Shown: positions 1 to 36,118 of the stretch, in pieces | How the letters are laid out: the number at the start of each line of letters is the position of its first letter | Numbering within the stretch: the stretch's first letter is position 1 | NCBI GenBank assembly: GCA_013042995.1 | Contig: JABDPB010000009.1 | Coordinates: 1-54,747, forward strand | Source of the DNA: Ignavibacteriaceae bacterium | GTDB taxonomy: Bacteria > Bacteroidota > Ignavibacteria > Ignavibacteriales > Ignavibacteriaceae | DNA length: 54,747 nt | Direction of reading: 5' to 3' | Position numbers and translations under genes: made by a program | The notes under the pieces: generated by a model | Databases searched by the model: none | The model's input: only the letters and a program-made list of their open reading frames with translations | What the model was told of the DNA's origin: nothing

Positions 1-1013
1 CAAGACGGTTATATGAAAAGGTTGAGGAGCTGGGCGGGAAAAAATTAGTTATTTCTGAATGCGGACATGGTTACCGATCAACGAGATGCGAGGCTCCAAA
101 TTGGGGCGGATATGATGTTCCGTTTGAGATGGAAAGCTCGGTTGATACAATGCTTAGGTACATTAAAGAAGGAAGGATTAAAGTAGATAAAAGTAAAAAC
201 ACGACACCTGTAACTTTTCACGATTCTTGCAACAATGCTAGAAGCTGTGGACTTTACGAAGAGCCTCGCGAATTGCTTCAGCTTGTTTGCTCTGATTTTA
301 GAGAAATGTACCCGAACAGAGCTGAAAACTACTGCTGTACTGGAGGTGGTGGTGCAATGTCAATGTCAGAATATACAAACCGAAGATTGAAATCAGGAAT
401 TGTAAAAGCAAATCAACTTAAAGAAACTGGTGCTTCAACCGTAGTAACCTCGTGTCACAATTGTGTTGATGGATTAACTGATGTTATTCGACATTACAAA
501 CTTGGTATGCAAGTTACACAGCTAGTAAATTTAGTTTCGAATGCACTTGTAATTGAAGAAAAAGTCGCTGTGCCGATTGAAGTAGTACCAGAAGCTGAAG
601 AACTTGAATTTGCAGGCCGTAAAATTCTTGTCGCAGATGATGAACCTGATTTTGTTACATTTATTTCTACTTTACTTGAAGATAACGGTGCCGAAGTAAT
701 AAAAGCTTACGATGGCGAGCAGGCTTTAGAACTTGCACGAATAGAAAAACCTGATTTGATTACGCTCGATATTTCAATGCCAGGTAAATCAGGAGTTGAA
801 GTTTTCGAGGATATTAAAAAGGATAAATCATTAAGAGACATACCTGTTTGCATAATTACTGGCAAGCCTGAACTGAGAAAGCTTATTTACGAACATCCTG
901 ACTCTCATCCGGAAGGTTATATGGACAAGCCCATCACAGAAGATGGATTAATAAGAAATCTTCGTAAGATTTTTGAAGTAGGGCAAGAGGAAAAGGTTTC
1001 TGCTGAGAAATAA
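1..1013 (+). CDS. HdrD/GlpC-like CCG-domain protein fused to a response-regulator receiver domain (5' partial)
   Basis: The reading frame is open from base 3 into the window edge, so the start lies upstream; the ATG at 129 is internal. The visible N-terminal part carries a CCG (cysteine-rich, heterodisulfide-reductase D type) domain: a Cys after HDS, the NYCCTGGGGA motif and a terminal SCHNC. In the family this domain holds a non-cubane iron-sulfur cluster used in thiol/disulfide or quinone-linked redox chemistry. The C-terminal ~120 residues form a complete REC domain (VADDE acidic pair, phospho-acceptor Asp in LITLDISMPG, ITGK, and the lysine of MDKP). It is followed after 14 bases by a PAS-PAS histidine kinase, its likely phosphodonor. 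The N-terminal ferredoxin-type clusters expected for HdrD proteins would be upstream of the window. The fusion is seen directly; control of redox activity by phosphorylation is inferred. Confidence 0.88.
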   Translation, partial: RRLYEKVEELGGKKLVISECGHGYRSTRCEAPNWGGYDVPFEMESSVDTMLRYIKEGRIKVDKSKNTTPVTFHDSCNNARSCGLYEEPRELLQLVCSDFREMYPNRAENYCCTGGGGAMSMSEYTNRRLKSGIVKANQLKETGASTVVTSCHNCVDGLTDVIRHYKLGMQVTQLVNLVSNALVIEEKVAVPIEVVPEAEELEFAGRKILVADDEPDFVTFISTLLEDNGAEVIKAYDGEQALELARIEKPDLITLDISMPGKSGVEVFEDIKKDKSLRDIPVCIITGKPELRKLIYEHPDSHPEGYMDKPITEDGLIRNLRKIFEVGQEEKVSAEK

Positions 1014-1027
1014 AAATTAAGATTGAA

Positions 1028-2434
1028 ATGGACGAGATTTATAAAAAATATTTCGATTCCGTTCCTAGCTATCTTACTATACAGGATAAAGATTTTCATC
1101 TTTTGGATGCAAATCAAAAATTCAAAAATGATTTTGGCGAAATAGAGGGTCGATATTGTTATCAAGTATACAAAAACCGATCTGAAAAATGTGAGAACTG
1201 TCCTGTTGAGAAAACTTTTCGTGATGGACAACCACACACCAGTGAAGAAAAAATTAAAACCCACAATGGAAATGATGTTTGGGTAATTGTTAATACTTCT
1301 CCCATTTATGATGATAATGGAAATATCATTTCCGTAATGGAAATGTCAACCGATATTACCGACGCAAAAAACCTTCAAGATCAACTAAGAACTAGCCAAC
1401 AAAAATACCATCTGCTTTTTGAGGAAGTGCCGTGCTATATATCTATTCAGGATAAAAATCTTAAAATAGTCGAAGCCAATCGCATGCACAGAGAAGCTTT
1501 TGGAACCTCATTTGGAAGTATGTGTTACAAAGTATACAAACATCGCAACACAAAATGCGAACCGTGCATAATTCAGCAAACATTTGAAGATGGTAAAATT
1601 CATTCACATGAAGAAGTGGTGACTTCGCAGGACAATAAACGTATAAATGTAATGGTTTATGCCGCTCCAATTAAAAATGGCAATGGTGAAGTTGAGCACG
1701 TAATTGAAATGAGTACTGACATAACTGAAATTCGGCAATTGCAGGATAAACTATCCTCAGTTGGATTGTTGATCGGTTCAATTTCTCATGGAATTAAAGG
1801 ACTGCTAAACGGTCTTGACGGAGGTATCTATTTAGTAAACACAGGTCTGAAAAAAGATGACCGAAAAAGAATAGATCAAGGTTGGGAGATTGCATCACGA
1901 AATATCAGGCGTATTAGAAGTATGGTAATGGATATCCTATATTATGCAAAAGACCGTGAACCGCAATGGGAAGATATAACAATAAAAGAACTCACGGATG
2001 AGGTATGCGAAAACTTCGGCGATAGGGCTAAACGGAATAACATTGATTATATTTGTGAAATTGATCCGGATGCTATAAAAATGGAAGCTGATAGAAATGC
2101 ACTCCGTTCTCTTCTGATAAATTTGCTAGATAATTCACTTGATGCATGCAGGATTGATACAAAAAAGAAAACTCATACAGTAACTTTAAAAGTGGATCAA
2201 GACGCTGATCAAATTGTTTTTAATGTTTCTGATAACGGAATCGGAATGGATCGTGAAACCCGCGAAAAAGCATTTAGTTTATTCTTTTCATCAAAAGGTG
2301 CCGGCGGCACAGGTTTAGGTTTATTTATTGCAAATAAAATTGCCGAAGCTCACGGCGGTTCAATTAAAATTGAATCTGAAGAAGGAAAAGGAAGTGAGTT
2401 TATGGTAAAGATGTTAAAAAAGCGCCCAGACTAA
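1028..2434 (+). CDS. PAS-PAS sensor histidine kinase with Cys-motif PAS domains
   Basis: A soluble 468-residue kinase with no membrane segments. PAS 1 spans about residues 5-110 and PAS 2 about 125-235. Each carries the same C-x10-C-x2-C motif (C44/C55/C58 and C166/C177/C180). The phospho-accepting His is in SISHGIKG (about 254), a variant of the usual H-box. The catalytic domain has an N-box (LINLLDNSLDAC), G1 (DNGIGMD) and G2 (GAGGTGLGL). It lies 14 bases after the HdrD-REC fusion and probably shares its transcript, so the fused REC is a likely target. It is a paralogue of the kinase at 3403-4875. The triple-Cys motif suggests sensing of redox state or a metal/cluster; that is inference. 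Confidence 0.93.
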   Translation: MDEIYKKYFDSVPSYLTIQDKDFHLLDANQKFKNDFGEIEGRYCYQVYKNRSEKCENCPVEKTFRDGQPHTSEEKIKTHNGNDVWVIVNTSPIYDDNGNIISVMEMSTDITDAKNLQDQLRTSQQKYHLLFEEVPCYISIQDKNLKIVEANRMHREAFGTSFGSMCYKVYKHRNTKCEPCIIQQTFEDGKIHSHEEVVTSQDNKRINVMVYAAPIKNGNGEVEHVIEMSTDITEIRQLQDKLSSVGLLIGSISHGIKGLLNGLDGGIYLVNTGLKKDDRKRIDQGWEIASRNIRRIRSMVMDILYYAKDREPQWEDITIKELTDEVCENFGDRAKRNNIDYICEIDPDAIKMEADRNALRSLLINLLDNSLDACRIDTKKKTHTVTLKVDQDADQIVFNVSDNGIGMDRETREKAFSLFFSSKGAGGTGLGLFIANKIAEAHGGSIKIESEEGKGSEFMVKMLKKRPD

Positions 2435-2867: not shown

Positions 2868-3386
2868 TTACTCAGAATTATTAAGCAGCTCTTTTAATTT
2901 TTTTAGAGTTTTAGGATCGGAACTATCAATTAAATTTTTCAGATTACTTTGTAATTCAACAAGCTCCGCTTTTTCCTTTTCATCATCAGTAGTTTCCATA
3001 TTCAAAGTCTTTTTTATTGCTGCAATATAATTGTGCGGTTTGACTGGTTTTTCCAAGTAGATTCCGGGTCCAGACATCGTAAGTTCCTTTAAATCTGCTT
3101 TGCCAAGATCATCACGAGCATGTCCTGTTACAATAATGACAGGGATTCTGGACCATTCTTTATTTTTATTTAATTCTCTATAAAATTTAGCTCCTGACTT
3201 TTTTGGCATTACTAAATCCAAAGAGATCAAATCAGGTGATTGTTTTTTCACTTCCTCTATTGCTTTATCACCATCTTCAGCCACTATAACTTCAAAGCCC
3301 GCTTCGAGAAGAGCGGCATTAAGAAAATTACGAACATCCGCCTCATCATCCACAACTAAAATCTTCTTCTTATCTCCAATAGGCAT
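2868..3386 (-). CDS. Stand-alone response regulator (REC only) with helical tail
   Basis: A 172-residue protein: REC domain at residues 8-130 with VVDDE, phospho-Asp in LISLDLVMPKKSG, the switch Thr in IVTGH and the lysine in YLEKPVKP. A ~40-residue charged helical tail follows. There is no DNA-binding or enzymatic output domain. Between beta-4 and beta-5 there is a longer-than-usual loop ending in GPGIYLEKP, shared with the other receivers in this region. A good ribosome-binding site (AAGGAG) precedes the ATG. It lies 16 bases after the PAS-PAS kinase stop, so the kinase at 3403-4875 is its likely partner. Its output is probably by protein-protein contact. Confidence 0.92.
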   Translation of the reverse strand: MPIGDKKKILVVDDEADVRNFLNAALLEAGFEVIVAEDGDKAIEEVKKQSPDLISLDLVMPKKSGAKFYRELNKNKEWSRIPVIIVTGHARDDLGKADLKELTMSGPGIYLEKPVKPHNYIAAIKKTLNMETTDDEKEKAELVELQSNLKNLIDSSDPKTLKKLKELLNNSE

Positions 3387-3402
3387 TGTAGACTCCTTTA
3401 TT

Positions 3403-4875
3403 TTATTTTTTATCTTTTGTTTCTTTATAGAGAGCTAGCAACCTTTTTCTTGGAAACACCATTCTAAACATTGCACCTTTGCCCTTTTGGGAATCGACTA
3501 AAATTTTACCTCCATGTTCTTGTACTATTTTTCTTGTTGTTAATAGTCCAAGTCCTGTTCCTGCTCCTCCTTTTGTAGTGAAGAAAGTTGTAAATATTTT
3601 ACTTTTTATTTCATAATCGATACCACTGCCATTATCAGTTACTTCAAATATAAGTTTATCTCTCCCTTCATAAAGCTTTAATAAAACTTCAGTTCCTTTT
3701 TGTTCACCCATCGAACAAGCATCAAGTGCATTTGACACTAAATTTGTAAGGCAGGTGTGAATTCCAGCTGGATCAAGTGGAGCAGTTTTTACTTTTTCAC
3801 TAATTTCTGTCTTTAGTTCAATTCCTGACTGTGCAGCTATATTTTTATAAAGATCGATTATTTCATATATAAGGTCTCTGGGATCCACAAGCTGTAATTC
3901 AGGCAAACGACCTTTTGAAAAACTAAGAAAATCTTTAACAAGAGATGTGGTTTTGTCGAAATTTCTATCCAACATTTCCCAACCCTGGTTTATCATCTCT
4001 TTACTATTTTTCTTCAATCCAAGGCTGACAATATATTTTCCTCCCTCTAAACCCATCAGAATGTTTTTTATACTATGAGCAAGTCCTGCAACTGTTTGGC
4101 CAACAGCACTAAGTCTTTCGGCTTCAATAACTTTATGTTCTAATTTTTTTAATTCTGTAATATCATTCGATATTTCAATTACGTGAGCAACATCGCCACT
4201 GCCACGCATTAGCGCTGATGTTGACACCTGATAATTAATATCCTGTCCTCTTTTTCCGATTCCTTTCTGAGTAGAATGATGAACTTCACCATCTTTAAAA
4301 GTTTTTTCAGCCGGACAATTTCGACATTTAGTTTCACGTCTTTTATATACTTTATAGCAGTGTTCTCCCAATACATCACCAAAGTTTTCCCTAAAGGCTT
4401 CATTGGCTCGAACAATTCTAAAGTCTTCACCAATTACTGTTATATAACATGGTACCCTATCAAACAGAATCTGGTATTCCTGCTGCCACCTGTTAATTTC
4501 GGTTACAGTTCTGGTCATTTCCATTACAAAATCAATATGGTCATTCTCTTTGTTTTTAATAGGAATAACGTGACCTACATAATGTGTCTTGCGTCCATGT
4601 TGATCAACTCCAACCGCATCAGCAACAACAGCACGTCCTTTTTTAAAGACCTCTTCTGATGGACAATCGTTGCATGGATTTTCTAATTTTTTATACACCG
4701 AATAACATTTTTTCCCTTTCCAGTTTCCAAAATAGTCTTTAAAATTTTGATTAGCCTCAACGACGTTATAATCCCGATCGATGACCGCCACATTAAAAGG
4801 TACCTGTTCAAACAATTCCCCATAGATTAATTCTCTTACTTGCTCCGGGGTATATTTTTGATTTATACTTTTAAT
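3403..4875 (-). CDS. PAS-PAS sensor histidine kinase with Cys-motif PAS domains; possible AUU start
   Basis: A soluble kinase paralogous to the one at 1028-2434. Two PAS domains each carry C-x10-C-x2-C; numbered from the TTG at 4815 these are C37/C48/C51 and C153/C164/C167. The phospho-His is in LAHSIKNI and is followed by an N-box (LVSNALDAC), G1 (DNGSGID) and G2 (GGAGTGLGL). The first conventional start is the TTG at 4815, but that cuts the first PAS helix and has no spaced ribosome-binding site. The frame stays open 20 codons further, to an ATT at 4875-4873 that overlaps the stop of the upstream REC gene and has TAGGAG five bases before it. I prefer that AUU start, without certainty. It sits between two REC genes, its likely targets. 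Confidence 0.85.
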   Translation of the reverse strand: MKSINQKYTPEQVRELIYGELFEQVPFNVAVIDRDYNVVEANQNFKDYFGNWKGKKCYSVYKKLENPCNDCPSEEVFKKGRAVVADAVGVDQHGRKTHYVGHVIPIKNKENDHIDFVMEMTRTVTEINRWQQEYQILFDRVPCYITVIGEDFRIVRANEAFRENFGDVLGEHCYKVYKRRETKCRNCPAEKTFKDGEVHHSTQKGIGKRGQDINYQVSTSALMRGSGDVAHVIEISNDITELKKLEHKVIEAERLSAVGQTVAGLAHSIKNILMGLEGGKYIVSLGLKKNSKEMINQGWEMLDRNFDKTTSLVKDFLSFSKGRLPELQLVDPRDLIYEIIDLYKNIAAQSGIELKTEISEKVKTAPLDPAGIHTCLTNLVSNALDACSMGEQKGTEVLLKLYEGRDKLIFEVTDNGSGIDYEIKSKIFTTFFTTKGGAGTGLGLLTTRKIVQEHGGKILVDSQKGKGAMFRMVFPRKRLLALYKETKDKK

Positions 4876-5281
4876 TTGAACTCCTATGTAATTGTTTGGT
4901 TTCTAAAAGATGATTTACACTTTGTATAAACTCATCCACATTTATCGGTTTTTCCAAATAAGCTTCTGGTACTTTAATAGCATCATCTTTAACATAATTC
5001 CTGAAATCAAATTTTCCACTTTCTATTGCACCGCTAATAATTATTACAGGTATCTGATGGAATTCTTCATTTTGGCGAAACCTTTTATAGAAAGACAATC
5101 CAGTTTCGTGAGGCATCATAATATCAAGACAAATCAAATCTGGTTTAATATCATGAAGTAACTCTAATCCATTTTTTACGTTACTATTTGAATATGTCTC
5201 ATAGCCATTTGCCTGCAGAATAGCCATTAAATATGCGATTACATCAGGTTCATCATCAATTATTAATATTTTCTTTTTCAT
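4871..5281 (-). CDS. Stand-alone response regulator (REC only)
   Basis: A 136-residue single-domain receiver: LIIDDE, phospho-Asp in LICLDIMMPHETG, switch residue in IISGA and the lysine in YLEKPIN. The extended loop before YLEKP (about 20 residues) matches the other receivers of this block. No output domain is present. Its start overlaps the 3' end of the NrfD-cytochrome gene by 26 bases and its stop overlaps the proposed start of the following kinase, so it is translationally coupled to both. That places a phospho-acceptor directly inside the operon of the membrane complex. Action by binding the complex or relaying phosphate is inferred. Confidence 0.93.
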   Translation of the reverse strand: MKKKILIIDDEPDVIAYLMAILQANGYETYSNSNVKNGLELLHDIKPDLICLDIMMPHETGLSFYKRFRQNEEFHQIPVIIISGAIESGKFDFRNYVKDDAIKVPEAYLEKPINVDEFIQSVNHLLETKQLHRSSN

Positions 5282-7157
5282 CTTTACTCATTTCTGATTG
5301 ATTTTTTTCCTTTTCTATGTTTGGCAGAATTACGCTGTTAAAATGAGGAAGTGTAGTTTTCCACTTTAAATTTTCAGCCACTTGATCGTGAATCTTAACT
5401 TTGTGGCAGGATTTACACTCCGTAAGGTTTTGTTTGTTTAGTTCATCTGCTTTTATGAAGTGGCAGGAAACACACAACTGATGAAATGCATCTGTATAAG
5501 AGATCGCAAAATATTTTTGGCTACCTATAAACCTTGCATTGTTAAAGTCATACTTTGGATGACAATCAACACAGTTTTTTGCTGATTTAGATTCTCTTTG
5601 CACACCTTCAACATGGCAATTATCACATTTAATATTTGCACCGCTTGAAGAAGCATGCCAATTGTGTTTAAAGTAATCAACTGGTTTATACATGTTTGTA
5701 TGACACTCCCAGCAGCTATTTTCTATAAATCTTGGCAGCGTTAAATGATGACATTGGGCACATTGATCTTCTCCAAGTCTTGCAATATGTTCTTTATGCG
5801 GAAATTCAACCAAATTATCATCCTTATTACCATTAATCAGTAATCTCTCTATTCCGCTTGCTCTGCTAACAGTTATTTCTTCAATTCCTTTCCCGTGTAA
5901 TTTTTTTTCTGGCATAAGAGCCATACCAACTGCAAAACTTAATACAAATGCAAGTGAAAATTTTGTTAAAGAGGCAGCATCGGGTGTTCCAAGCCAAGCG
6001 TGCGATGAATAATCAAAAGATGGAGCAGTATGCGGAAGTGATTCTGGATCCTGAGGTTTTAAATCCCAAATATTAAAGTGCTCTATTACAAATAAGAAAA
6101 CTAATGCTGCTGCAGACACAACACCAAGGCTAATTGTGATTTCCATCCACGATGGTGTATAACTATCTCCAGTTATACTTAGCATAGTCAATCCACCAAC
6201 ATTAATTCTGTTAAATACCATTCCAAACACAACCATAAAAGAACCTATCCACTGTGCTTTTATATTTCTACGCATCTTCGGAACAGAAAAAATTATTATT
6301 GGAAAAATGATTGAAATGAAAATTTCAGATATGAATACAAAGCTTTCCCAGCTTCCATTTAATACAATTGTAATTTCACCCGCGGCAAGAATATCTATAA
6401 TTTTTACTATGAGGTAAATTGATAAAACCCACACAACCGTTTTACCGAGTTTTTCAACAAGACTAGTCTCAGGCTTACGTTTATATAGCCAATGAGATGC
6501 TAAACTTTCAAAGGCCACCATCATCAATCCAAGCGCAACGGCTGAAAGAAAAAATTGGATAGGTAGTATGTTGGAATACCACAGCGGATGAAGCTTAAAA
6601 GGCATTATTAAAAACAGTGAGCCAAGTGATGATTGATGCAGAGTTGAAAGCATAATTCCCAGTAAGACAAAAACAAAACGAAACTTCATTAAAAAGTTTC
6701 TGATCTTGGCGTAGCGACTGTATTTTTCAAGTGGAACAGGACTAAACTCTAGCAGCAGAACTGCTGAGTACAACATTACACACCAACCGACTTCAAACAA
6801 TGGAGAATGCGGATTCCAAAAAATTATCATATGCCAGATATTCCACGGTAAACCTAAATCGAAAAGCAAACCGAGAATTACTGCCATATATCCAAGAAAG
6901 GCAGTTAATACCGCAGGTTTAACAAGTGGATGAAATTCCTCTCTTTTCATTATGTAAAAGATAGCGGTCATAACAAAACCGCCAGCTGCAAGTGCAACAC
7001 CACCCATAACATCAAAACCTATCCATAAACCCCATGGGGTTGAATCAGTTAAATTTGTTGTTGCACCCAAACCGAAGATAAAACGATTCAGCCCGACTGC
7101 TGCAGCAAATCCTGTAATTAACCATAATATAATTTTTGTGTTCTGAACTCTATTCAT
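5256..7157 (-). CDS. NrfD-family quinone-interacting membrane subunit fused to a hexaheme cytochrome c
   Basis: About 630 residues. The N-terminal ~400 residues hold roughly nine or ten hydrophobic helices of the NrfD/PsrC/HmcC/DsrP family, which binds menaquinone in the membrane. After a last helix (AFVLSFAVGMAL) the C-terminal ~200 residues carry six CxxCH heme c motifs: CAQCH, CWECH, CDNCH, CVDCH, CVSCH and CKSCH. The cytochrome part should therefore face the periplasm. I chose the ATG at 7157 (GGGG upstream; family-like MNRVQ start) over the ATG at 7178. It overlaps the ferredoxin gene by 8 bases. In Dsr, Hmc and Qrc complexes the cytochrome is a separate subunit, so the fusion is unusual. 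Its likely role is electron exchange between periplasmic hemes and the quinone pool. Confidence 0.9.
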   Translation of the reverse strand: MNRVQNTKIILWLITGFAAAVGLNRFIFGLGATTNLTDSTPWGLWIGFDVMGGVALAAGGFVMTAIFYIMKREEFHPLVKPAVLTAFLGYMAVILGLLFDLGLPWNIWHMIIFWNPHSPLFEVGWCVMLYSAVLLLEFSPVPLEKYSRYAKIRNFLMKFRFVFVLLGIMLSTLHQSSLGSLFLIMPFKLHPLWYSNILPIQFFLSAVALGLMMVAFESLASHWLYKRKPETSLVEKLGKTVVWVLSIYLIVKIIDILAAGEITIVLNGSWESFVFISEIFISIIFPIIIFSVPKMRRNIKAQWIGSFMVVFGMVFNRINVGGLTMLSITGDSYTPSWMEITISLGVVSAAALVFLFVIEHFNIWDLKPQDPESLPHTAPSFDYSSHAWLGTPDAASLTKFSLAFVLSFAVGMALMPEKKLHGKGIEEITVSRASGIERLLINGNKDDNLVEFPHKEHIARLGEDQCAQCHHLTLPRFIENSCWECHTNMYKPVDYFKHNWHASSSGANIKCDNCHVEGVQRESKSAKNCVDCHPKYDFNNARFIGSQKYFAISYTDAFHQLCVSCHFIKADELNKQNLTECKSCHKVKIHDQVAENLKWKTTLPHFNSVILPNIEKEKNQSEMSKDEKENINN

Positions 7158-7920
7158 CTTTATTTCCCCGATCTTCATTTTGATTTTTACTTAGTTCCAT
7201 TCTGCGTCTTATTATCCAATTTAAACCAAGCATAAAACCACCCATTCCAACAAAAGCAAACGGAACAGATTTCATTGCAGGCTCCGTTGTTTCAGGGAGC
7301 GGCTTGTTTCCAAGATGAGTATTGTACGATAGAAAACTAAGATCAATATCTGAAAGGTAGAGTACTGAAGTACCGCCTATCTCATTTTCACCCCAGACTT
7401 TGTTTATGTATTTCCCAGGATTTTCTGCTATTCGATTATGAGCAATCTTTAATAGTTCATTGCGATCGCCAAAAATTGTTGCACCTTCCGGACAGATTTT
7501 TGTGCAGGCAGGTTGATCTCCATTTTTAATTTTATCAAAACATAAAATACATTTTCTAACATAAGGTACAGATTGGTCCCAATCATAACGTGGAATTCCA
7601 TATGGACAAGCCATCATACAGTAACGACAGCCAAGGCATTTATCACTATCGTAAACAACAGCACCCTCATTCGTTTTCTGTAATGCACCAACAGGACAGG
7701 CCGTTACGCACGCTGGCTCCAGACAATGCCGGCATTGTTTTCGTATAAAATGATTTCCAGGTTTTTGAATTATCGATGTCCAATTCTCTGCAGATAAACC
7801 ATCATTTTTCTGCCATATTCTTGGAACATCCATTTCGAGATTATTTGTTTCTTTACAAGCAGAAACACACTTAAGACAGCCAATACATTTTGTAATATCT
7901 GTTAAAATTGCTTTACTCAA
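7150..7920 (-). CDS. Four-cluster [4Fe-4S] ferredoxin subunit with C-terminal membrane anchor (HmcB/DsrO-like)
   Basis: About 256 residues with four Cys clusters: CIGCLKCVSAC, CRHCLEPACVTAC, CLGCRYCMMAC, and the split CILC...ACTKIC. This is the DmsB/HybA/HmcB pattern, holding four [4Fe-4S] clusters that pass electrons between partner subunits. A hydrophobic helix near the C-terminus (FAFVGMGGFMLGLNWII) would anchor it. There is no twin-arginine or Sec signal, so the iron-sulfur domain probably stays in the cytoplasm, unlike DsrO. The start is most likely the TTG at 7920: it overlaps the upstream stop as TTGA and has AAGGAG seven bases before it. The longer frame from 7953 adds a non-homologous leader inside the previous gene. 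Confidence 0.9.
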   Translation of the reverse strand: MSKAILTDITKCIGCLKCVSACKETNNLEMDVPRIWQKNDGLSAENWTSIIQKPGNHFIRKQCRHCLEPACVTACPVGALQKTNEGAVVYDSDKCLGCRYCMMACPYGIPRYDWDQSVPYVRKCILCFDKIKNGDQPACTKICPEGATIFGDRNELLKIAHNRIAENPGKYINKVWGENEIGGTSVLYLSDIDLSFLSYNTHLGNKPLPETTEPAMKSVPFAFVGMGGFMLGLNWIIRRRMELSKNQNEDRGNKDE

Positions 7921-8621
7921 ACCGCAGCTCCTTTTTTGTTTAATGTTGAGCAAACTGCTTCATCAGTTTCTGGGGGAAATTTCCACGCAATTGTGCACAC
8001 CACCTGTGAAAGAGGCATTAATACACAATGTGCAATTTTTGTAAATGGAATCAGGATAAAAATCAAATTGCCTGAAAGTACGTGCATAAGCATAAAAAAC
8101 TGATAGTAAGTGGGATTTACATTTAGATGAGCACAAACAAATCCTGTAATAAAAGGAATCAGCAACAAAATGGGCCAAAGATAATCCTGCTTGCGGCTTA
8201 AAAAACTTGACGATTTGTTAAACATTCGTCCCATCAAAAGTGCAATTGCAAATACAATTGTTGAAATAGTTAACCAATAAGCCCAATCAAATGGAAGAGT
8301 AATCCAAGAAATACCAATTGACTTTTCCCATTGCTTTACATGTGCATATAGGAAAATTGGAACCACAAGTAATCCAATATGAAAGAGCGTTGAAAAGGTT
8401 GAATAGAAAGGACGATTGCGAGCTACTCTATTTACGGGGAAAAACCATTCCAGTCCTCTACTTAGTACGAGCTTCCACGGCATATTTTTATCACCTGCTT
8501 TTCGGTATGCTTTATATATACCCCAAATATCCAACATAAAAATTCTTATCAAACCTAAAAGCATTATTGCAAAGGTCAGTCGAAATAATGGTCCTTTTGC
8601 AAATTCAAGCCAAGATTCCAT
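7917..8621 (-). CDS. NarI/DsrM-like cytochrome b membrane subunit
   Basis: A 234-residue membrane protein with five to six hydrophobic helices (near residues 12-32, 76-94, 112-130, 150-168 and 176-198). Conserved histidines within helices (FHIG, MHVLSG, KIAHC) are plausible heme b ligands, as in NarI, DsrM, HmcE and TmcC. The expected job is electron transfer between quinone and the cytoplasmic DsrK-like partner encoded immediately upstream, 2 bases away. The stop overlaps the start of the ferredoxin gene. The order DsrK-like, DsrM-like, ferredoxin, NrfD-cytochrome defines one membrane complex of the Hmc/DsrMKJOP type. Confidence 0.87.
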   Translation of the reverse strand: MESWLEFAKGPLFRLTFAIMLLGLIRIFMLDIWGIYKAYRKAGDKNMPWKLVLSRGLEWFFPVNRVARNRPFYSTFSTLFHIGLLVVPIFLYAHVKQWEKSIGISWITLPFDWAYWLTISTIVFAIALLMGRMFNKSSSFLSRKQDYLWPILLLIPFITGFVCAHLNVNPTYYQFFMLMHVLSGNLIFILIPFTKIAHCVLMPLSQVVCTIAWKFPPETDEAVCSTLNKKGAAV

Positions 8622-8623
8622 AG

Positions 8624-10093
8624 TTAGTTTTCCTTCGGTAATGATTCTGATTTAGCTTCTTCTTTTTCGATGAGTGAATCATCAAAAATTATCGCTTTAT
8701 AAATTAAATCATGAAGACCAACTACCTCGCAAGCGATACCCTGATCTTCAACTAATTCTCTAAGTTGCTTTTTACAGTTAGCACAAGGAGCAACTAAAAT
8801 TTCGCAGCCCGATTTTCTTATTTGATCTGCTTTTAGTTTGCCGCCAACCGTTGTTCTGTATGTTCTTAATTCATCAATTGAAACTGTTCCGCCGCCACCA
8901 CCGCAACAAATATTGTTTTCACCTGATGGAGTCATTTCAACATAATTTTTACAGAACGCTTTTAACAGTTCGCGAGGTTTATCAATTATCCATCTTTGTC
9001 GGGCAATATTACAAGGGTCGTGGTATGCTACTTTTTCTGTTACAATATTTGGATTAAATTTTAATTTTCCTTCTTTCCAAACCATATATGTGTATTCCAT
9101 AATGTTAATTACCAGCGGAGCATCTTTTCCTCCGCAATAAGTAGGAATAAAGTACTTTGCCGAACGGGAAGCATGCCCACACTCACCGATTAAAATATTT
9201 TTACCCCTCAGTCTTTTGGTTTCTTCATCAACTTTCTTCACAACTCTTTCCAGCATTCTATCGCTGTAAAAAAGACCGTAGTTAATTCCATCGAAATATC
9301 CTGTACCAGTTGTCCAGGAATCACCTGTAGCAGTAAAAACTGCAGCAATACCCATTAATGATTCTGCTTCCATTAAAAAATCACTTACTGCAGGAAAGAA
9401 AACATATTCAGTATCTTCAACATCAATAGGAAATTTTATTCTCACAGATTTTTCTTCGAACATATCGTCTTCTAAAAACTCAAGTGTATCCTTCAATGCA
9501 GGAACCGGAATTGCAGATGTGTTTTTAGTTGCACCTTCCAACTGTTCACGGGTACTTACAACTAAAGCTCTTGGTGCTATTCCAATTTCACTTAAAATAT
9601 ATCTTCCTAAATGTGTTATTAATGCATGATCAATTCCTGAGGGGCATTCTAGCGAACATCTTTTGCATGCTGTGCAGTTCCAGAAGCTATCTGCCATCTC
9701 CTGAATTTTATCATCAGTTAAATAACCACTTCCTAATAATCTTCCTTTAATCAAACCGCCAATCGTAAAATGACGTCTATAAACACTTAAAAGTAATTCA
9801 GAACGGTAACAAGGTATGTCTTTCAAATCTCCCGTTGCCTGGTAAACCTGGCATGTGGTCGCACATCGAGAGCACTTAGCACTCATTCTAATAAAATGAT
9901 CGAGTGCCATTTTATAATTTGAATGTTTAAGGATTGCAGCAAATGCCTCTAAAAATCTTCGCGGTCTTTCAGAAACATCAAAATCTTCGATATGATAGCG
10001 AACGTCAAGCTTTTGCTTCTCAATCGTTTCAGGTTTTCTTAATGATTTAAATGCTTTCTGCTTTTCTTCATCTGTAATGACAGTAGTATTCAT
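8624..10093 (-). CDS. HdrD/DsrK/HmcF-like iron-sulfur protein (CCG domain)
   Basis: A 489-residue soluble protein. Two N-terminal cluster motifs are present: C74-x2-C77-x3-C81-x13-C95 (non-canonical spacing) and C140-x2-C143-x2-C146-x3-C150 followed by Pro (canonical [4Fe-4S]). The C-terminal CCG domain has HDPC, NICCGGGGG and APCANC, which in HdrD and DsrK bind a non-cubane [4Fe-4S] cluster at the catalytic site for disulfide or heterodisulfide chemistry. AGGAAACAA precedes the ATG. It is 56 bases after the NifX-like gene and 2 bases before the DsrM-like gene. It is the probable cytoplasmic catalytic subunit of this complex; its physiological substrate cannot be read from the sequence. Confidence 0.93.
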   Translation of the reverse strand: MNTTVITDEEKQKAFKSLRKPETIEKQKLDVRYHIEDFDVSERPRRFLEAFAAILKHSNYKMALDHFIRMSAKCSRCATTCQVYQATGDLKDIPCYRSELLLSVYRRHFTIGGLIKGRLLGSGYLTDDKIQEMADSFWNCTACKRCSLECPSGIDHALITHLGRYILSEIGIAPRALVVSTREQLEGATKNTSAIPVPALKDTLEFLEDDMFEEKSVRIKFPIDVEDTEYVFFPAVSDFLMEAESLMGIAAVFTATGDSWTTGTGYFDGINYGLFYSDRMLERVVKKVDEETKRLRGKNILIGECGHASRSAKYFIPTYCGGKDAPLVINIMEYTYMVWKEGKLKFNPNIVTEKVAYHDPCNIARQRWIIDKPRELLKAFCKNYVEMTPSGENNICCGGGGGTVSIDELRTYRTTVGGKLKADQIRKSGCEILVAPCANCKKQLRELVEDQGIACEVVGLHDLIYKAIIFDDSLIEKEEAKSESLPKEN

Positions 10094-11076: not shown

Positions 11077-12429
11077 TTAATATTGATCAATGTTGATATT
11101 GTAGCGCTTAATTTTACGCCAGAGTGTTGTGCGGTGGATTCCTAATTGTTCAGCAGCTTTTGAAACAGCTCCACCACAATTTTGAATGGCATTTATAATC
11201 CTTTCCTGTTCATCAATTGATTCTGTAACAGGTGTGGATTCTGATTTTATATCAGTGAATGAATCCTGTTCTCTAGGTAAAAGCTCAGGAGAAAGATGTT
11301 CTCTTTTAATTATACTTCCATGACAAAGAACAAAACCGTGCTCGATTATATTTTCAAGTTCTCTTATATTTCCTGGAAAATTATATCTCATTAAAATGTT
11401 CATAACGTTTGGACTAACGCTTATAATTTTCTTTCCTGTTTTTGCATTAAACTTTCTAATAAAGTGATCAACTAAAAACGGAATATCTTCTCTTCTGTCT
11501 TTCAATGCTGGCAAATCAAATTTTACAACTGCAAGCCGGAAGTATAAATCATCTCTGAATTTTGCCTGTGCTACAAGATTTTTTAAATCTTTATTACTTG
11601 CGGCGACAACTCTTAAATTGGCTTTTATGGTTTCTGTACTGCCAAGTGGTTCGTATTCCCTTTCCTGTAAAAGCCGGAGTAGTTTTACCTGCGTTGAAAG
11701 GGGCAGTTCACCTATCTCATCAAAAAAAACAGTGCCTCCGTTTACTTTTGTTAGTTTTCCCTCTTTATCTGTTTTAGCATCTGTAAATGCACCCTTAACA
11801 TATCCGAACAATTCAGATTCAAATAATTGAACTGGAAGTGTACCGCAGTTTATTACAACATAATTTTTATTTTTTCTTGGACTAAGGTTATGAATTGCCC
11901 TTGCAAAAAGTTCTTTGCCGGAACCGGAAGGTCCCTGAATTAAAACCGTGCTTTCACTTTCTGCAATATCCGGCAAAATAGCAAATAGTTTATGCATTCG
12001 CGGGCTTTTCGATATTATATCTTCAAGCGAATAACTGCGTCTTAATTCTTTTCGCAAATGTTCGATTGTTGAAAGATCTCGGAAAGTTTCTACGGCACCC
12101 AAAATTTTACCTTCTTCACTTTTAAGTACTGCAGTTGAGATGCTAATAGGAATTTTATCACCCTGATTATTAATAATATTTACTGGGCGGTCTATAGCTT
12201 CAATTCCAGTTTCAAGTGTATCCTGAAGTAGGCAGTTTTCACAAATATCGGAATGAAAAACATCCTGGCAATGTTTGCCAACTGCTTGGGAGGCAGGAAC
12301 GCCGGTTATTTTTTCTGCAGCACGGTTAAAGCTGGTAATAATTCGCTGGCTATTAACAGTGAAAACGCCGTCTGCTATAGAACTAAGTATAACTTTAAAG
12401 AAATCAATATTTTCTTGGTCCTCATTCAC
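11077..12429 (-). CDS. PAS-containing sigma54-dependent transcriptional activator (NtrC family)
   Basis: 450 residues. The N-terminal PAS domain (about 10-120) carries C54-x8-C63-x2-C66, the same type of Cys motif as in the nearby kinases. The AAA+ domain (about 135-370) has Walker A GPSGSGKE, the sigma54-contact loop GAFTDA (a variant of GAFTGA), Walker B VFFDEIGEL and the arginine-finger region FRDDLYFRL. The C-terminal Fis-type helix-turn-helix reads SKAAEQLGIHRTTLWRKI. No REC domain is present, so the PAS signal should control it directly. The start is GTG at 12429. It is flanked by a REC gene and by the repeat array in front of the NifX-like operon, its probable target. Confidence 0.94.
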   Translation of the reverse strand: MNEDQENIDFFKVILSSIADGVFTVNSQRIITSFNRAAEKITGVPASQAVGKHCQDVFHSDICENCLLQDTLETGIEAIDRPVNIINNQGDKIPISISTAVLKSEEGKILGAVETFRDLSTIEHLRKELRRSYSLEDIISKSPRMHKLFAILPDIAESESTVLIQGPSGSGKELFARAIHNLSPRKNKNYVVINCGTLPVQLFESELFGYVKGAFTDAKTDKEGKLTKVNGGTVFFDEIGELPLSTQVKLLRLLQEREYEPLGSTETIKANLRVVAASNKDLKNLVAQAKFRDDLYFRLAVVKFDLPALKDRREDIPFLVDHFIRKFNAKTGKKIISVSPNVMNILMRYNFPGNIRELENIIEHGFVLCHGSIIKREHLSPELLPREQDSFTDIKSESTPVTESIDEQERIINAIQNCGGAVSKAAEQLGIHRTTLWRKIKRYNINIDQY

Positions 12430-12501
12430 TTTTTAACAAATCCTTTTCATAAATACATTGCAATAAAATCAATAAAAAAATATTAATGAGCTTGCTCCAG
12501 A

Positions 12502-12885
12502 CTAAATCTTCAAAAGCTCCTTAACTTTTTCTAAAAGTTTATCTCTATCAATTGGTTTTTCAAAATAACCTTCCGGTGCATGAACCTGTTTGCGAGTTTC
12601 GATAAATCTTTTGAAGTCCAACGAGACGCCTGTTACAAGTATTACTGGAGTATTTTTTGTTACTTCATTTTCTTGTAATTCACGCAGAGCCTTCACACCC
12701 GATTCCTCAGGCATAGATACATCCAATGTAATGATATCAGGATTTTCTTCCACAGCTCTTTTAACACCATCTTTGCCGTTCACGGCAGATATAGTGTTAA
12801 ATCCGTTATCGTCAAAGAATGTAGTTAAGTAAGTAATTACATCTGTTTCATCATCAATAATTAATATTTTTTTTGCTTCTGCCAT
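12502..12885 (-). CDS. Stand-alone response regulator (REC only)
   Basis: A 127-residue single receiver domain: LIIDDE, phospho-Asp in IITLDVSMPEESG, switch Thr in LVTGV and the lysine in YFEKPID. It has the same extended loop ending in APEGYFEKP as the REC fused to the CCG protein at the window start. No output domain is present. Of two adjacent ATGs (12888, 12885) I prefer the second, which is better spaced from GGGG. It lies between the first HdrD-like gene (44 bases downstream of its stop) and the sigma54 activator. No kinase is adjacent; the kinases at 1028 and 3403 are the nearest candidates. Confidence 0.92.
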   Translation of the reverse strand: MAEAKKILIIDDETDVITYLTTFFDDNGFNTISAVNGKDGVKRAVEENPDIITLDVSMPEESGVKALRELQENEVTKNTPVILVTGVSLDFKRFIETRKQVHAPEGYFEKPIDRDKLLEKVKELLKI

Positions 12886-12932
12886 CATTTGCCCCTGTGC
12901 TTGAATTTAATTATAAGTTAATTTCTTATTTT

Positions 12933-14543
12933 TTATTTCAATTCCCATTCGATAAACGGTTTTTCGATATCCACCATTGCATTAACAATAAGTTCAACAA
13001 GTCCACCGTAAATAATTCCAGCTTTGTCAAAAGCATTATAATAAGTGAGTCCGTCTCTAAAAGTACCTTTGCAGTTAGAACAAGGTGAACAAACATACTT
13101 GTAAGTTGAAGGTTCAATTTTATCCTGAAATGCATCAAGTATTTGTTTGAATTTCATTCTAAATGAAAGTCCATTTCGCCAGTCTGGGAAATTTTTTCCC
13201 TGCATAATTGCAAAACCACTGCCCCCACCGCAGCAGTAGTTGTGAACTCCATGTGGTACCATTTCCCTAAATTGTGGACACAAGTAACGCAATATTTTTC
13301 TTTGCGGCTTAACAATGCCCATTGCTCTAACCGCATTGCACGGATCATGCAAAGTAACTGGAAAATCATTTTTATTCGGATCAAATTTTATTTTGCCACT
13401 AAAAACTATTTCCTCTAATATCGGATACGCACTTTCCCTTGGGATGATATTCTCATCAATTAAAATTCTATCGGCAACTGGCATTAAAGCTTTATGAGCA
13501 TGCCCGCACTCGCCCATAACAATTCGGTTGACGTTAAGTTCTTTGGCAATTCGTATATGTTCAAGTGCTACTCTTGCAAGCTGTGCATCATCGTACCAAA
13601 GACCGTAATTTACTGAATCATATCCACCCATTTGAGAAGACATCGTCCAATTTATTCCTGCCTTTTCAAATATAATTGCAAAAGCCATAATGTTTTCTGG
13701 CCAGGAAAGAAATTCTCCAAAATTATGAATAAGTAATATATCAGCATCTTCTTTATCAAGCGGCATTTTGATATCCAATCCAGTCATATCTTTTAGATCT
13801 TCTTCAATAAATTCTACAATATCAAGCATTGCCGTTGGATTTGTTCCCGTTGATGAACCGGTTGCAAGCTGTTTCATCGAACCTGATTTGTGAAGTTCTT
13901 CAGCTGCTAAACCTAATTCCTGGCTCATTAATTTTCTTATTTCTCTCGAAATCAAACCGTTATCTACACCAATCGGGCATGCTTGAGCACATCTTCGGCA
14001 AAGTGTACATCGATAGGAAAGTTCAGCAAGCCTTGCAACTGTTTCCCAGTTTAAATCAATATCGGAGCCGCTAAATTTATGATAAAATTTTCCACCGGGT
14101 TTTAAATATTTATTAATTATGCGTCTTAAAATTTCTCCACGGAAAATCGGTCTGTAAATTTCTTCTTTTCCACTGGCAATATAAACCGGGCATTCATCCG
14201 AACAGGATTGGCACTTAACACAGTTTTCCATGGAAAGCAAAAGGGGTTGAAGTAATATCCAATTATCTTCCTTGCTTAGTAATTTTTTCAGTCCGGATAA
14301 AAATTTTGCTACAAGCTCTTGTTTTTCTTCTTCAGTTTCAGGTTTAGGAATTGCAATTCCTGAAAAACCATCTAATGAATGTTCAAGCCTGTTTTTTTGG
14401 TCTTCAGTTAATTCTTTCATCGGAGGATCAACCCAATCATCGTAAGGCGGTGGGAGCTTTATAAATTCAGAAGGATCAAGCTCCGTTATTTGTTCTTGGA
14501 TTTTAGAAAAGTCTTTAACCGATTTCATCTTATTGTCACTCAT
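12933..14543 (-). CDS. HdrD/TmcB/DsrK-like iron-sulfur protein (CCG domain)
   Basis: A 536-residue soluble protein with a ~100-residue N-terminal extension. Two canonical C-x2-C-x2-C-x3-C-P motifs (C108-C118 and C179-C189) bind [4Fe-4S] clusters. A C-terminal CCG domain follows, with HDPC, NYCCGGGSG and SPCSNC. It is a divergent paralogue of the protein at 8624-10093. The ATG overlaps the stop of the membrane-protein gene (ATGA), with GGAG before it, so the two are translationally coupled. Together they form a two-subunit TmcBC/DsrMK-like module that could oxidise or reduce the quinone pool against a cytoplasmic disulfide, thiol or iron-sulfur partner. The partner is not identifiable here. 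Confidence 0.93.
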   Translation of the reverse strand: MSDNKMKSVKDFSKIQEQITELDPSEFIKLPPPYDDWVDPPMKELTEDQKNRLEHSLDGFSGIAIPKPETEEEKQELVAKFLSGLKKLLSKEDNWILLQPLLLSMENCVKCQSCSDECPVYIASGKEEIYRPIFRGEILRRIINKYLKPGGKFYHKFSGSDIDLNWETVARLAELSYRCTLCRRCAQACPIGVDNGLISREIRKLMSQELGLAAEELHKSGSMKQLATGSSTGTNPTAMLDIVEFIEEDLKDMTGLDIKMPLDKEDADILLIHNFGEFLSWPENIMAFAIIFEKAGINWTMSSQMGGYDSVNYGLWYDDAQLARVALEHIRIAKELNVNRIVMGECGHAHKALMPVADRILIDENIIPRESAYPILEEIVFSGKIKFDPNKNDFPVTLHDPCNAVRAMGIVKPQRKILRYLCPQFREMVPHGVHNYCCGGGSGFAIMQGKNFPDWRNGLSFRMKFKQILDAFQDKIEPSTYKYVCSPCSNCKGTFRDGLTYYNAFDKAGIIYGGLVELIVNAMVDIEKPFIEWELK

Positions 14544-15463
14544 TTTTTCTCCTCAGTTGGATTAGTTGTTGCTACTTCTGCCCATGTCTTTCCAGTTTGA
14601 ATATGTGGAGCAGACCAGCTAACACCAAAATTCAATGCTTCTTTAATTTTCTTTTCAAGCTTACCACCTTTTACGTTCGGTTCGTCTTCCCATCGTACTT
14701 TGTGATAAGTAAAATATTTTGCAAAAAGATGCATCATTCGAGTTATTGGGAAATAAAGAAAAAATAAAGAAAGTAAAATTACGTGGATGATAAATGAAAC
14801 ATCATTTATCGCCGCAAAATTTAAAGTGAATAAATTTTTAACAAATATTTTACTTTCTATAAAACCTGTATTTGAGTTTACCAGTGTTATAAACACAACT
14901 ACGCCTAAAATCAATATGAAATAAAGATTTGTAAAATCCATTGCTGAGTTGTAAAACTTAAATTTCTTATCTGTAGCCCGCTGAAAAATCAAACCTATAC
15001 AGCCGAGACAGGTTAGCACAAGACCACCATAGCCAAAAATATTTATTACGTTGTTTAGCAGGATCCCCACAAATAATGTGTCAGTATTTAGCACCACTAA
15101 ACTAGCTAAATCAAATAAAACTGAGATAACAATTAAAAAGAAGGTAGCCACAATTAAATACAATCCTAAATGAAATGGAAAAGAAAAATACCAGAGCTTT
15201 CTGTTGTGAATGTAAACACCTTTCAGGAATATTATCTCTTCAAACATTGCCCAAAATTCTGCAATGTGGCTTTTCTTAATTTCATTTTTCCACCACTTCG
15301 GTTCTTCATAATAGGAACCGCCGTATTTATTTTTTTCGTGGGCAACTGGATACAATTCCCATCTAACGTGTACCGGTGCACTTGAATACTTAATTATTTT
15401 TGAAAAAACCAATACAATGAATACAAATAAAGAAAAGTAAGTGAACAGATACAGTAGAATCAT
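14540..15463 (-). CDS. TmcC/DsrM/NarI-like integral membrane redox subunit
   Basis: 307 residues. An N-terminal helix is followed by a cytoplasmic stretch containing PVHVRWELYPVAHE, typical of TmcC-like proteins, then four or five further helices (about residues 95-120, 132-160, 175-195 and 220-245). Histidines in FHLGLY and FIIHVILL are candidate heme b ligands. It is the membrane partner of the coupled HdrD-like gene. AGGGGTT precedes the ATG. It lies 62 bases after the MerR gene in the same direction, so it is probably under MerR control. Confidence 0.86.
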   Translation of the reverse strand: MILLYLFTYFSLFVFIVLVFSKIIKYSSAPVHVRWELYPVAHEKNKYGGSYYEEPKWWKNEIKKSHIAEFWAMFEEIIFLKGVYIHNRKLWYFSFPFHLGLYLIVATFFLIVISVLFDLASLVVLNTDTLFVGILLNNVINIFGYGGLVLTCLGCIGLIFQRATDKKFKFYNSAMDFTNLYFILILGVVVFITLVNSNTGFIESKIFVKNLFTLNFAAINDVSFIIHVILLSLFFLYFPITRMMHLFAKYFTYHKVRWEDEPNVKGGKLEKKIKEALNFGVSWSAPHIQTGKTWAEVATTNPTEEKK

Positions 15464-35263: not shown

Positions 35264-36118
35264 TCATGCAAAGCTCTTCAGTACTTTATCAAGCGAATAT
35301 TTATCGCCGCCATTTGTATTATCACAGACTTTTGTAATTACGTTTTGAAGTCTGTCTTCAAGAGTCGGCTTTTGCACTTGATAAAATATGCCCGTATAAA
35401 TTGGCTGGTCGGAGTACGCTCTTTCCAATGCAACCATTTTATTATCCGTTGGATGATCTTCAGGCAAAGGCTGAAGTATTGCTTTCAATCCTTTTGCATC
35501 GAGAAGTGGAAATGTTCTGCAGGGAGAAAGAATGTAAACAATTGACATTCCTTTGTGGGAAATTGCTTCCATTAAAATTTGAGTGAGGGATTTTGGATCT
35601 ACTCCGTTTGCACGTGCAACAAAAGAAACATCGTACGATAAAAATATCGGGATAGCATCCAGTGTATCTTCAAATACACCATGCGGAGAGGTTTTAGTTT
35701 TTACACCAAGTGGAGAAGTAGGAGATGTTTGTCCTTTTGTTAAACCGTAAATCTGGTTATCAATTAATAAATAATTCATATCAACATTTTTTCGTGATGC
35801 ATGAGCAATATGTCCGCCGCCAATTCCAAGTCCGTCACCATCACCTCCAACTGCAAATACAGTTAATTCCGGATGAGCTGCTTTCACACCTAATGCAGTT
35901 GGAACCGCACGTCCATGAGTGCCATGAAGCGAATACGTATTTAAAAAATGTGAAAGTCTCCCGGAGCACCCAATTCCTGAAACCGAAACAATATTTTCGG
36001 GATCAATATCTAAATTCAATAATGCTCTCTGGATGCTTACAAGAATGCCATAGTCACCACAGCCCGGGCACCAGACCGGTTCGATGATGCTTTTATAATC
36101 TTGCAATGTTTTTTTCAT
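35264..36118 (-). CDS. korB: 2-oxoacid:ferredoxin oxidoreductase, beta subunit (KorB-like)
   Basis: 284 residues from the ATG at 36118 (AGGA six bases before); the frame extends to 36124. WCPGCGDYGIL and the thiamine diphosphate/Mg motif GDGDGLGIGG followed by NQIYGLTKGQTSPTS are typical of the beta subunit of 2-oxoglutarate (Kor) or related oxidoreductases. SGIGCSGR is also present. It converts 2-oxoacid and CoA to acyl-CoA with reduction of ferredoxin, or the reverse in the reductive TCA cycle. The start overlaps korA by 26 bases. Substrate (2-oxoglutarate or other) is inferred from similarity to KorB. Confidence 0.9.
   Translation of the reverse strand: MKKTLQDYKSIIEPVWCPGCGDYGILVSIQRALLNLDIDPENIVSVSGIGCSGRLSHFLNTYSLHGTHGRAVPTALGVKAAHPELTVFAVGGDGDGLGIGGGHIAHASRKNVDMNYLLIDNQIYGLTKGQTSPTSPLGVKTKTSPHGVFEDTLDAIPIFLSYDVSFVARANGVDPKSLTQILMEAISHKGMSIVYILSPCRTFPLLDAKGLKAILQPLPEDHPTDNKMVALERAYSDQPIYTGIFYQVQKPTLEDRLQNVITKVCDNTNGGDKYSLDKVLKSFA

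Follow-up and report, generated by a model that had tools for sequence, protein, structure and literature searches.

Can a redox subunit of a respiratory complex be switched by phosphorylation of a receiver domain carried in its own chain? The question is raised by the first gene of the window, by which we mean the whole stretch of 54,747 nucleotides analysed here, an entire contig (C48) of the 3.44-Mb draft genome of an Ignavibacteriaceae bacterium (assembly GCA_013042995.1, contig JABDPB010000009.1). A preliminary description of this DNA took the gene for an HdrD-type CCG redox protein directly joined to an intact receiver (REC) domain and followed by a cognate-looking kinase. To our knowledge, sulfate and sulfite reducers are described as controlling their respiratory complexes mostly at the level of transcription.

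The fusion gene spans two contigs

The open reading frame at positions 3–1013 of the forward strand lacks a start codon, as the contig edge cuts the gene. When the genome was searched for members of the family, the 5′ part (the first 290 codons, L102:16603-17474) was located at the end of another contig, C97, whose positions 35347–35473 are identical to positions 1–127 of the window. This exact 127-bp overlap makes the two contigs neighbours and places the dsr/apr cluster carried by C97 near the complexes of the window on the chromosome. The joined frame is a single open reading frame of 585 amino acids that starts with an ATG and encodes, in this order, two [4Fe-4S] motifs, one full CCG motif, a short linker and a REC domain. 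The fusion placed at the contig edge by the preliminary description is thus real, and the window holds its 3′ part only (Table 1). The search for further CCG and REC architectures that the same description had proposed yielded 66–68 fused homologues of roughly 50–77% identity, in about a dozen phyla and one clade, four of them in single-contig MAG chromosomes. These homologues, together with the contig overlap, rule out an assembly artefact or a chance fusion.

Table 1 Features of the CCG-REC gene and the adjacent kinase gene (positions in the window)
Feature	Position	Strand	Basis
CCG-REC gene, 3′ part, 336 codons	1..1013	+	Open reading frame list, Pfam, contig overlap
C-terminal CCG domain, full cysteine set	210..464	+	PF02754 40.5-42.7 bits, invariant cysteines
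Linker, redox core to receiver	546..614 (boundaries approximate)	+	Low pLDDT at L007 451-470, variable length
REC domain	624..959	+	PF00072 73.6 bits, conserved residues
Soluble PAS-PAS histidine kinase, H254 (codon 1787-1789)	1028..2434	+	Pfam, 55-kinase alignment, adjacency, co-divergence, model

The redox half resembles HmcF, TmcB and DsrK

The Pfam CCG model matches residues 70–154 of the 336-residue frame above its cut-off (40.5 bits), and the CCG cysteines are C76, C111-C112, C151 and C154. The full-length relative L007 displays Fer4_8, CCG and Response_reg domains, with Fer4_8 and CCG over cut-off. Across the fused sequences, all eight cysteines of two C-x2-C-x2-C-x3-C cluster motifs are invariant, as are the CCG cysteines (C344, C379-C380, C419 and C422 in L007 numbering). 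In the degenerate N-terminal CCG repeat, an E-C-G-H motif is retained that also occurs in DsrK. With its two [4Fe-4S] motifs ahead of a complete CCG cysteine set, and with a gene for a NarI-like cytochrome b next to its own, the protein belongs to the Fe–S/CCG superfamily of HdrD, DsrK, TmcB and HmcF-like subunits.

An AlphaFold2 model of L007, built from a 75-row alignment (mean pLDDT 88.7, pTM 0.71), consists of two well-predicted parts separated by a low-confidence stretch at about residues 451–470. In its predicted fold, the redox half resembles EtfD (Z 27, 383 residues, 3.2 Å) and HdrB (Z 20.8). The linker, which is flexible according to this model, varies in relatives from 8 to 53 residues between the domain-model ends.

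Among the three NCBIfam models used to place the redox half (HmcF, TmcB and DsrK), HmcF is the nearest, followed by TmcB and DsrK. L007 scores below the cut-off of each: 337 bits against 750 for HmcF (NF045711), 314 against 735 for TmcB (NF045724) and 257 against 400 for DsrK (NF045796). Identity as DsrK is ruled out by its score, and the true DsrK of the genome is encoded elsewhere. Of the label "HdrD-type CCG redox protein", the CCG redox protein stands and the HdrD type can be refined: the subunit is better stated to be of the HmcF/TmcB/DsrK kind with a NarI-like cytochrome b and ties to DsrAB and DsrC, rather than a methanogen-type HdrD.

A single clade with a patchy distribution

A tree of 113 redox cores, calculated by a quick method with SH-aLRT support only, contains one fully supported clade of 66 fused, 4 split and 11 REC-less sequences, which is separate from HmcF/TmcB, from DsrK and from a sister clade of REC-less Zixibacteria sequences. 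In a tree of the receivers, which is built from few columns and has many unresolved forks, the fused RECs need only two label changes, and the starred branches force one. The simplest reading of these trees is a single fusion event followed by losses or splits. Six Nitrospirota sequences together with L070, L071, L072 and L075 lack the REC and are nested in the fused clade, as if by loss. The REC-less Zixibacteria sequences are no evidence of REC loss, since they form the separate sister clade, and the apparently REC-less form in L069 is a REC broken by a gap of N bases.

The host labels of the family include Zixibacteria, Myxococcota/Deltaproteobacteria, Acidobacteriota, Thermodesulfobacteriota, Planctomycetota, Calditrichota, Ignavibacteriota, Bacteroidota, Electryoneota, Poribacteria, Gemmatimonadota, Elusimicrobiota and Riflebacteria. 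These records come from metagenome assembly, and some of the labels may be erroneous (that of L072, "Nealsonbacteria", is doubtful). A restriction of the fusion to one lineage is ruled out: its distribution is patchy, yet extends over many phylum labels. Within the phylum of the host, two of 198 genomes match the family, the second with a REC-less form.

An intact receiver with a conserved output face

Pfam Response_reg matches residues 208–319 of the 336-residue frame above its cut-off, and the domain carries the acidic pair D212/D213, the phospho-acceptor D256 (codon 768-770), T286 and K309. All sampled fused relatives whose sequence extends over these positions keep the acidic pair, the phospho-acceptor aspartate and the lysine. 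At the switch position, 54 have a threonine and 14 a serine. The predicted fold of the L007 receiver half matches canonical receivers with a Z of about 21. This full set of residues within a receiver fold is that of a phosphorylatable receiver, as the preliminary description had it, and rules out a degenerate pseudo-receiver.

The usual output face of receivers comprises α4 and α5. Compared to the stand-alone receivers described below, the fused RECs are more conserved in α4 (3.31 versus 2.49 bits) and α5 (2.73 versus 2.12 bits) and nearly equal in α3 (2.64 versus 2.54 bits). As the fused copies are less diverse overall (mean identity 0.58 versus 0.47), the conservation of α4 and α5 is no more than a hint that the output face has a specific partner.

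A soluble kinase with two cysteine-bearing PAS domains

The kinase gene begins 14 bases past the stop codon of the fusion gene. Its product has the attributes of a histidine kinase, namely a phospho-acceptor histidine, an N box, G1 and G2 boxes and the DHp and ATPase folds. An alignment of 55 kinases shows H254, N369, D402/G404/G406 and G427/G429/G431 to be invariant. HATPase_c exceeds its Pfam cut-off, and the sequence has no Pfam match to HisKA. The structure model has a PAS-PAS-DHp-CA arrangement, in which residues 233–307 form the DHp helices.

Both PAS domains carry cysteines: C44, C55 and C58 are conserved in PAS1, which has an additional C14 in 67% of kinases, and a C-x29-C-x10-C-x2-C set in PAS2 (C136, C166, C177 and C180) is invariant in the 55 kinases. 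A metal, Fe–S or thiol sensor is a plausible function for these sets.

A conserved gene set

The gene order around the fusion is conserved: macro domain, HmcE/TmcC-like cytochrome b, CCG-REC, PAS-PAS kinase and, in many cases, a stand-alone REC. By strict criteria, the kinase gene starts no more than 400 nucleotides after the fusion in 55 of the 59 fused loci that have enough downstream sequence; the other four fusions have no adjacent kinase. An HmcE-like gene, for whose product HmcE and TmcC are the best NCBIfam matches, lies upstream of the fusion in 56 of 63 fused loci. Here it occupies L102:15870-16613, and two histidines are invariant in its family. A gene for a macro domain of the ADP-ribose-binding type (L102:15371-15904) lies directly upstream of the cytochrome b gene, as in 51 of 59 fused loci. 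The stand-alone REC follows the kinase in 37 of 53 fused loci and is absent from 16. Overall, the fusion is real, widely conserved and functionally coherent, and its gene set is conserved across about a dozen bacterial phyla.

None of the intact REC-less relatives has the kinase next to it, the N-gap-broken L069 being the one apparent exception. Four Desulfobacterota genomes (L162, L163, L165 and L166) encode the receiver on its own, in a gene that lies between those for the CCG protein and the kinase. As these split receivers fall outside the fused ones on the receiver tree, simple fission is unsupported.

In many loci, genes for sigma54, Rrf2-like or helix-turn-helix regulators, which vary between lineages, are found upstream of the module. 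L010:2983-3771 and the 18 loci of cluster 5 encode, also upstream of the module, an excisionase-type HTH_17 DNA-binding domain in one chain with a receiver-like domain of weak match.

Receiver and kinase diverge together

Pairwise divergence was compared in 38 complete loci. The fused REC correlates with the kinase (r 0.79, full partial correlation 0.75) and far less with its own redox core (r 0.41, partial 0.14), which in turn correlates with the HmcE-like cytochrome b (r 0.75, partial 0.62). The stand-alone receiver joins the block of receiver and kinase (r 0.59, 30 loci). Two co-diverging blocks thus appear in these sequences, one of core and cytochrome b and the other of receiver and kinase, with the stand-alone receiver, and both receivers could share one kinase. 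No coevolution limited to the docking helix of the kinase was found; PAS, DHp and CA all correlate with the fused REC.

Considering (i) the adjacency of the kinase in 55 of 59 fusions, (ii) the joint absence of REC and kinase, and (iii) the correlated divergence of the two, the adjacent kinase is likely the partner of the fused REC, which bears out the preliminary view of it as cognate.

The module is linked to the Dsr pathway

DsrA exceeds its cut-off in 47 of 50 family-bearing genomes and in 44 of the 47 that have the fused form (L069 included). Among 132 Zixibacteria genomes, it is present in 27 of 32 with the fused form, in none of 11 with the REC-less sister and in 20 of 89 with neither (fused versus rest, Fisher p 7e-11, kinship ignored). 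Because 20 DsrA-bearing Zixibacteria genomes have no module, the latter is either not essential to the pathway or was missed in incomplete MAGs. In L017, the gene order is dsrA-B-N-L-C-[macro-HmcE-CCGREC-kinase]-RsbRD-dsrM-K-J-O-P, and in the Syntrophaceae loci L037, L054, L055 and L073 the module also lies among dsr genes.

In the host genome, the module adjoins the dsr operon. C97 carries dsrA, dsrB, dsrN-like, dsrL-like and dsrC genes, a gene for an RsbRD protein, dsrMKJOP and aprA, with DsrA, DsrB, DsrK, DsrM and AprA over their cut-offs (725 bits for the true DsrK, 539 bits for DsrM). The host is a probable sulfate or sulfite reducer, and the presence of a true DsrK in this set makes the fused protein an additional DsrK-like subunit.

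Most of the REC-less Zixibacteria sisters, whose genomes have no DsrA, share an operon with a DsrC in which both C-terminal cysteines are preserved; this gene context suggests that the redox partner is a DsrC-type carrier. In L171-L181, this sister module has the order DsrC, cytochrome b, CCG.

DsrC-like proteins of another form are encoded near the module at L076:821-1150, L077:8685-9020, L081:8676-8999 and L085:8712-9044, and in L042, L053 and L075. In all seven loci, the second canonical cysteine is missing; about 17 residues ahead of the penultimate one lies a cysteine in an FPCG motif. In Nitrospirota loci, an FPCG-bearing DsrC-like gene directly follows the REC-less CCG gene.

Other complexes of the window

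A second, Hmc/Dsr-like complex is encoded on the reverse strand at 2868–10093. It comprises an NrfD-class III cytochrome c fusion, a Fer4 protein, a NarI-like subunit and a DsrK-like CCG protein, and has its own PAS kinase (3403-4815) between two stand-alone RECs (2868-3386 and 4871-5281). On the same strand, 11077–15463 holds a third CCG/cytochrome b pair (DsrK-like, 536 amino acids; NarI-like, 307 amino acids), a stand-alone REC (12502-12888) and a PAS-sigma54 activator, so that all three complexes of the window are accompanied by receivers. Judged from its translation, the reverse-strand open reading frame at 17501–19705 joins a cysteine desulfurase to a selenophosphate-synthetase-like domain, and the genes beside it appear selB- and selA-like.

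A model of the switch and its alternatives

Combining these findings, we favour, with modest confidence, a kinase-switched oxidoreductase on the menaquinol side of the Dsr pathway, in which phosphorylation of D256 of the fused REC by the kinase would alter electron exchange or assembly. CCG-REC would be the cytoplasmic catalytic subunit of a membrane oxidoreductase with an HmcE/TmcC-like cytochrome b in sulfite reduction, and would carry its receiver on a flexible linker. The kinase, whose two cysteine-bearing PAS domains may read a cytoplasmic redox, thiol or metal signal, would autophosphorylate on H254 and hand the phosphoryl group to D256. Phosphorylation would alter the α4-β5-α5 face of the receiver, which could then contact the core, the cytochrome b or DsrC and change the exchange of electrons between the menaquinol-side cytochrome b and the thiol or disulfide partner of the CCG site, most likely DsrC; alternatively, assembly of the complex would change. 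The stand-alone receiver, where present, may be a second target or a competing phosphate acceptor. As far as sequences can tell, phospho-control of electron flow through CCG-REC is likely, and action on DsrC or a similar thiol, switched by the kinase on the menaquinol side, is the most likely form of it. The core itself can probably work without the switch, as the REC-less Nitrospirota homologues suggest.

The signal might instead run in the opposite direction, such that the Fe–S/CCG complex acts as a sensor of electron flow and, through its redox state, controls whether the attached REC is phosphorylated, while the kinase and the stand-alone REC, or nearby sigma54 or helix-turn-helix regulators, convey the respiratory state to gene expression. 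The stand-alone REC after the kinase in 37 of 53 fused loci, the sigma54, Rrf2-like or helix-turn-helix regulators upstream in many loci and the correlation of the kinase with both RECs would suit this arrangement. We consider it unlikely, given that the kinase has cysteine-bearing PAS sensors of its own, that the upstream regulators vary by lineage while the fused REC and the kinase do not, and that four fusions have no adjacent kinase and 16 of 53 loci no stand-alone REC.

A role of the fused REC as a phosphate sink, or as a tether that holds the kinase at the membrane complex, would leave redox activity unaltered and make the stand-alone REC the output. Two receivers per kinase in most loci, a flexible linker and a fused REC that is weakly correlated with its own core are all compatible with such a role, which is nonetheless improbable: the fused REC is more constant than the stand-alone one and also better conserved, above all in α4 and α5. 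Least probable of all, and in our judgement very much so, is a structural or docking domain for which phosphorylation is no longer relevant. The core keeps its conservation where the REC is absent (the nested Nitrospirota homologues) or separate (one Desulfobacterota group), but the acidic pair, the phospho-acceptor aspartate and the lysine are kept in every fused sequence that covers them, with Thr or Ser throughout, and intact relatives that lack the REC lack the kinase too.

The favoured kinase-switched oxidoreductase can be extended, tentatively, to an undescribed and widespread class of Dsr complexes, in which the passage of electrons between the quinone pool and DsrC, or a carrier like it, might be switched rapidly by His-Asp phosphorylation of the catalytic subunit itself, from a soluble kinase that senses sulfur or redox state with its cysteine-bearing PAS domains. 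The conserved gene set suggests phosphorylation control of electron flow in sulfite and sulfate respiration. If the model is true, cells tune the flow of electrons into DsrC-linked sulfur respiration at the post-translational level. D256, H254 of the kinase and the α4 face offer concrete targets for a test, and a function may be suggested for the receivers beside Hmc- and Tmc-type complexes.

Comparison with known systems

No description of a receiver fused to an HmcF/TmcB/DsrK-like subunit was found in the open-access literature searched. The preliminary description had considered two-component control of an Hdr-type enzyme undescribed. Within the literature searched, this holds for the fusion; the two-component link is not wholly without precedent, because rrf1 and rrf2 beside hmc have been published, being cited as regulators of hmc expression (PMC10924467), and because we see RECs beside tmcB-like genes.

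The Hmc (HmcF/HmcE) and Tmc (TmcB/TmcC) complexes of Desulfovibrio-type sulfate reducers likewise have a cytoplasmic Fe–S/CCG subunit beside a NarI-like cytochrome b. They provide the best NCBIfam matches for both subunits of the CCG-REC module, and REC genes are found near some HmcF and TmcB genes. According to one paper, their cytoplasmic partner is not known and may be DsrC or ferredoxin (PMC4215793). In contrast to these complexes, the CCG-REC module has no periplasmic cytochrome gene, carries its REC in-chain and has a macro-domain gene upstream, and its redox subunit scores far below both cut-offs and forms a separate clade.

DsrMK and its paralogs (dsrM2, dsrK2) share with the module the pairing of a CCG/Fe–S subunit with a cytochrome b and the ties to dsr genes; dsrMK paralogs occur near dsrAB in Acidobacteria (PMC6018796) and in Ca. 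Thermonerobacter (PMC6338057). The texts consulted on these paralogs mention no receiver, and from DsrK itself CCG-REC is set apart by its score (257 versus 400 bits) and by the true DsrK and DsrM on C97. EtfD of Mycobacterium and HdrB/HdrD, which the redox half resembles in predicted fold (EtfD and HdrB), differ in sequence (15–18% identity), have no receiver and serve ETF or CoM-S-S-CoB systems. An Fe–S-binding receiver protein (PMC7078487) also ties a receiver to Fe–S chemistry and a kinase, but there the cluster is bound by the receiver, whose role is in feedback control. A phosphorylatable receiver and an enzyme are likewise combined in one chain in response regulators that have enzymatic output domains; in CCG-REC, the receiver is joined to a respiratory redox subunit that belongs to a membrane complex.
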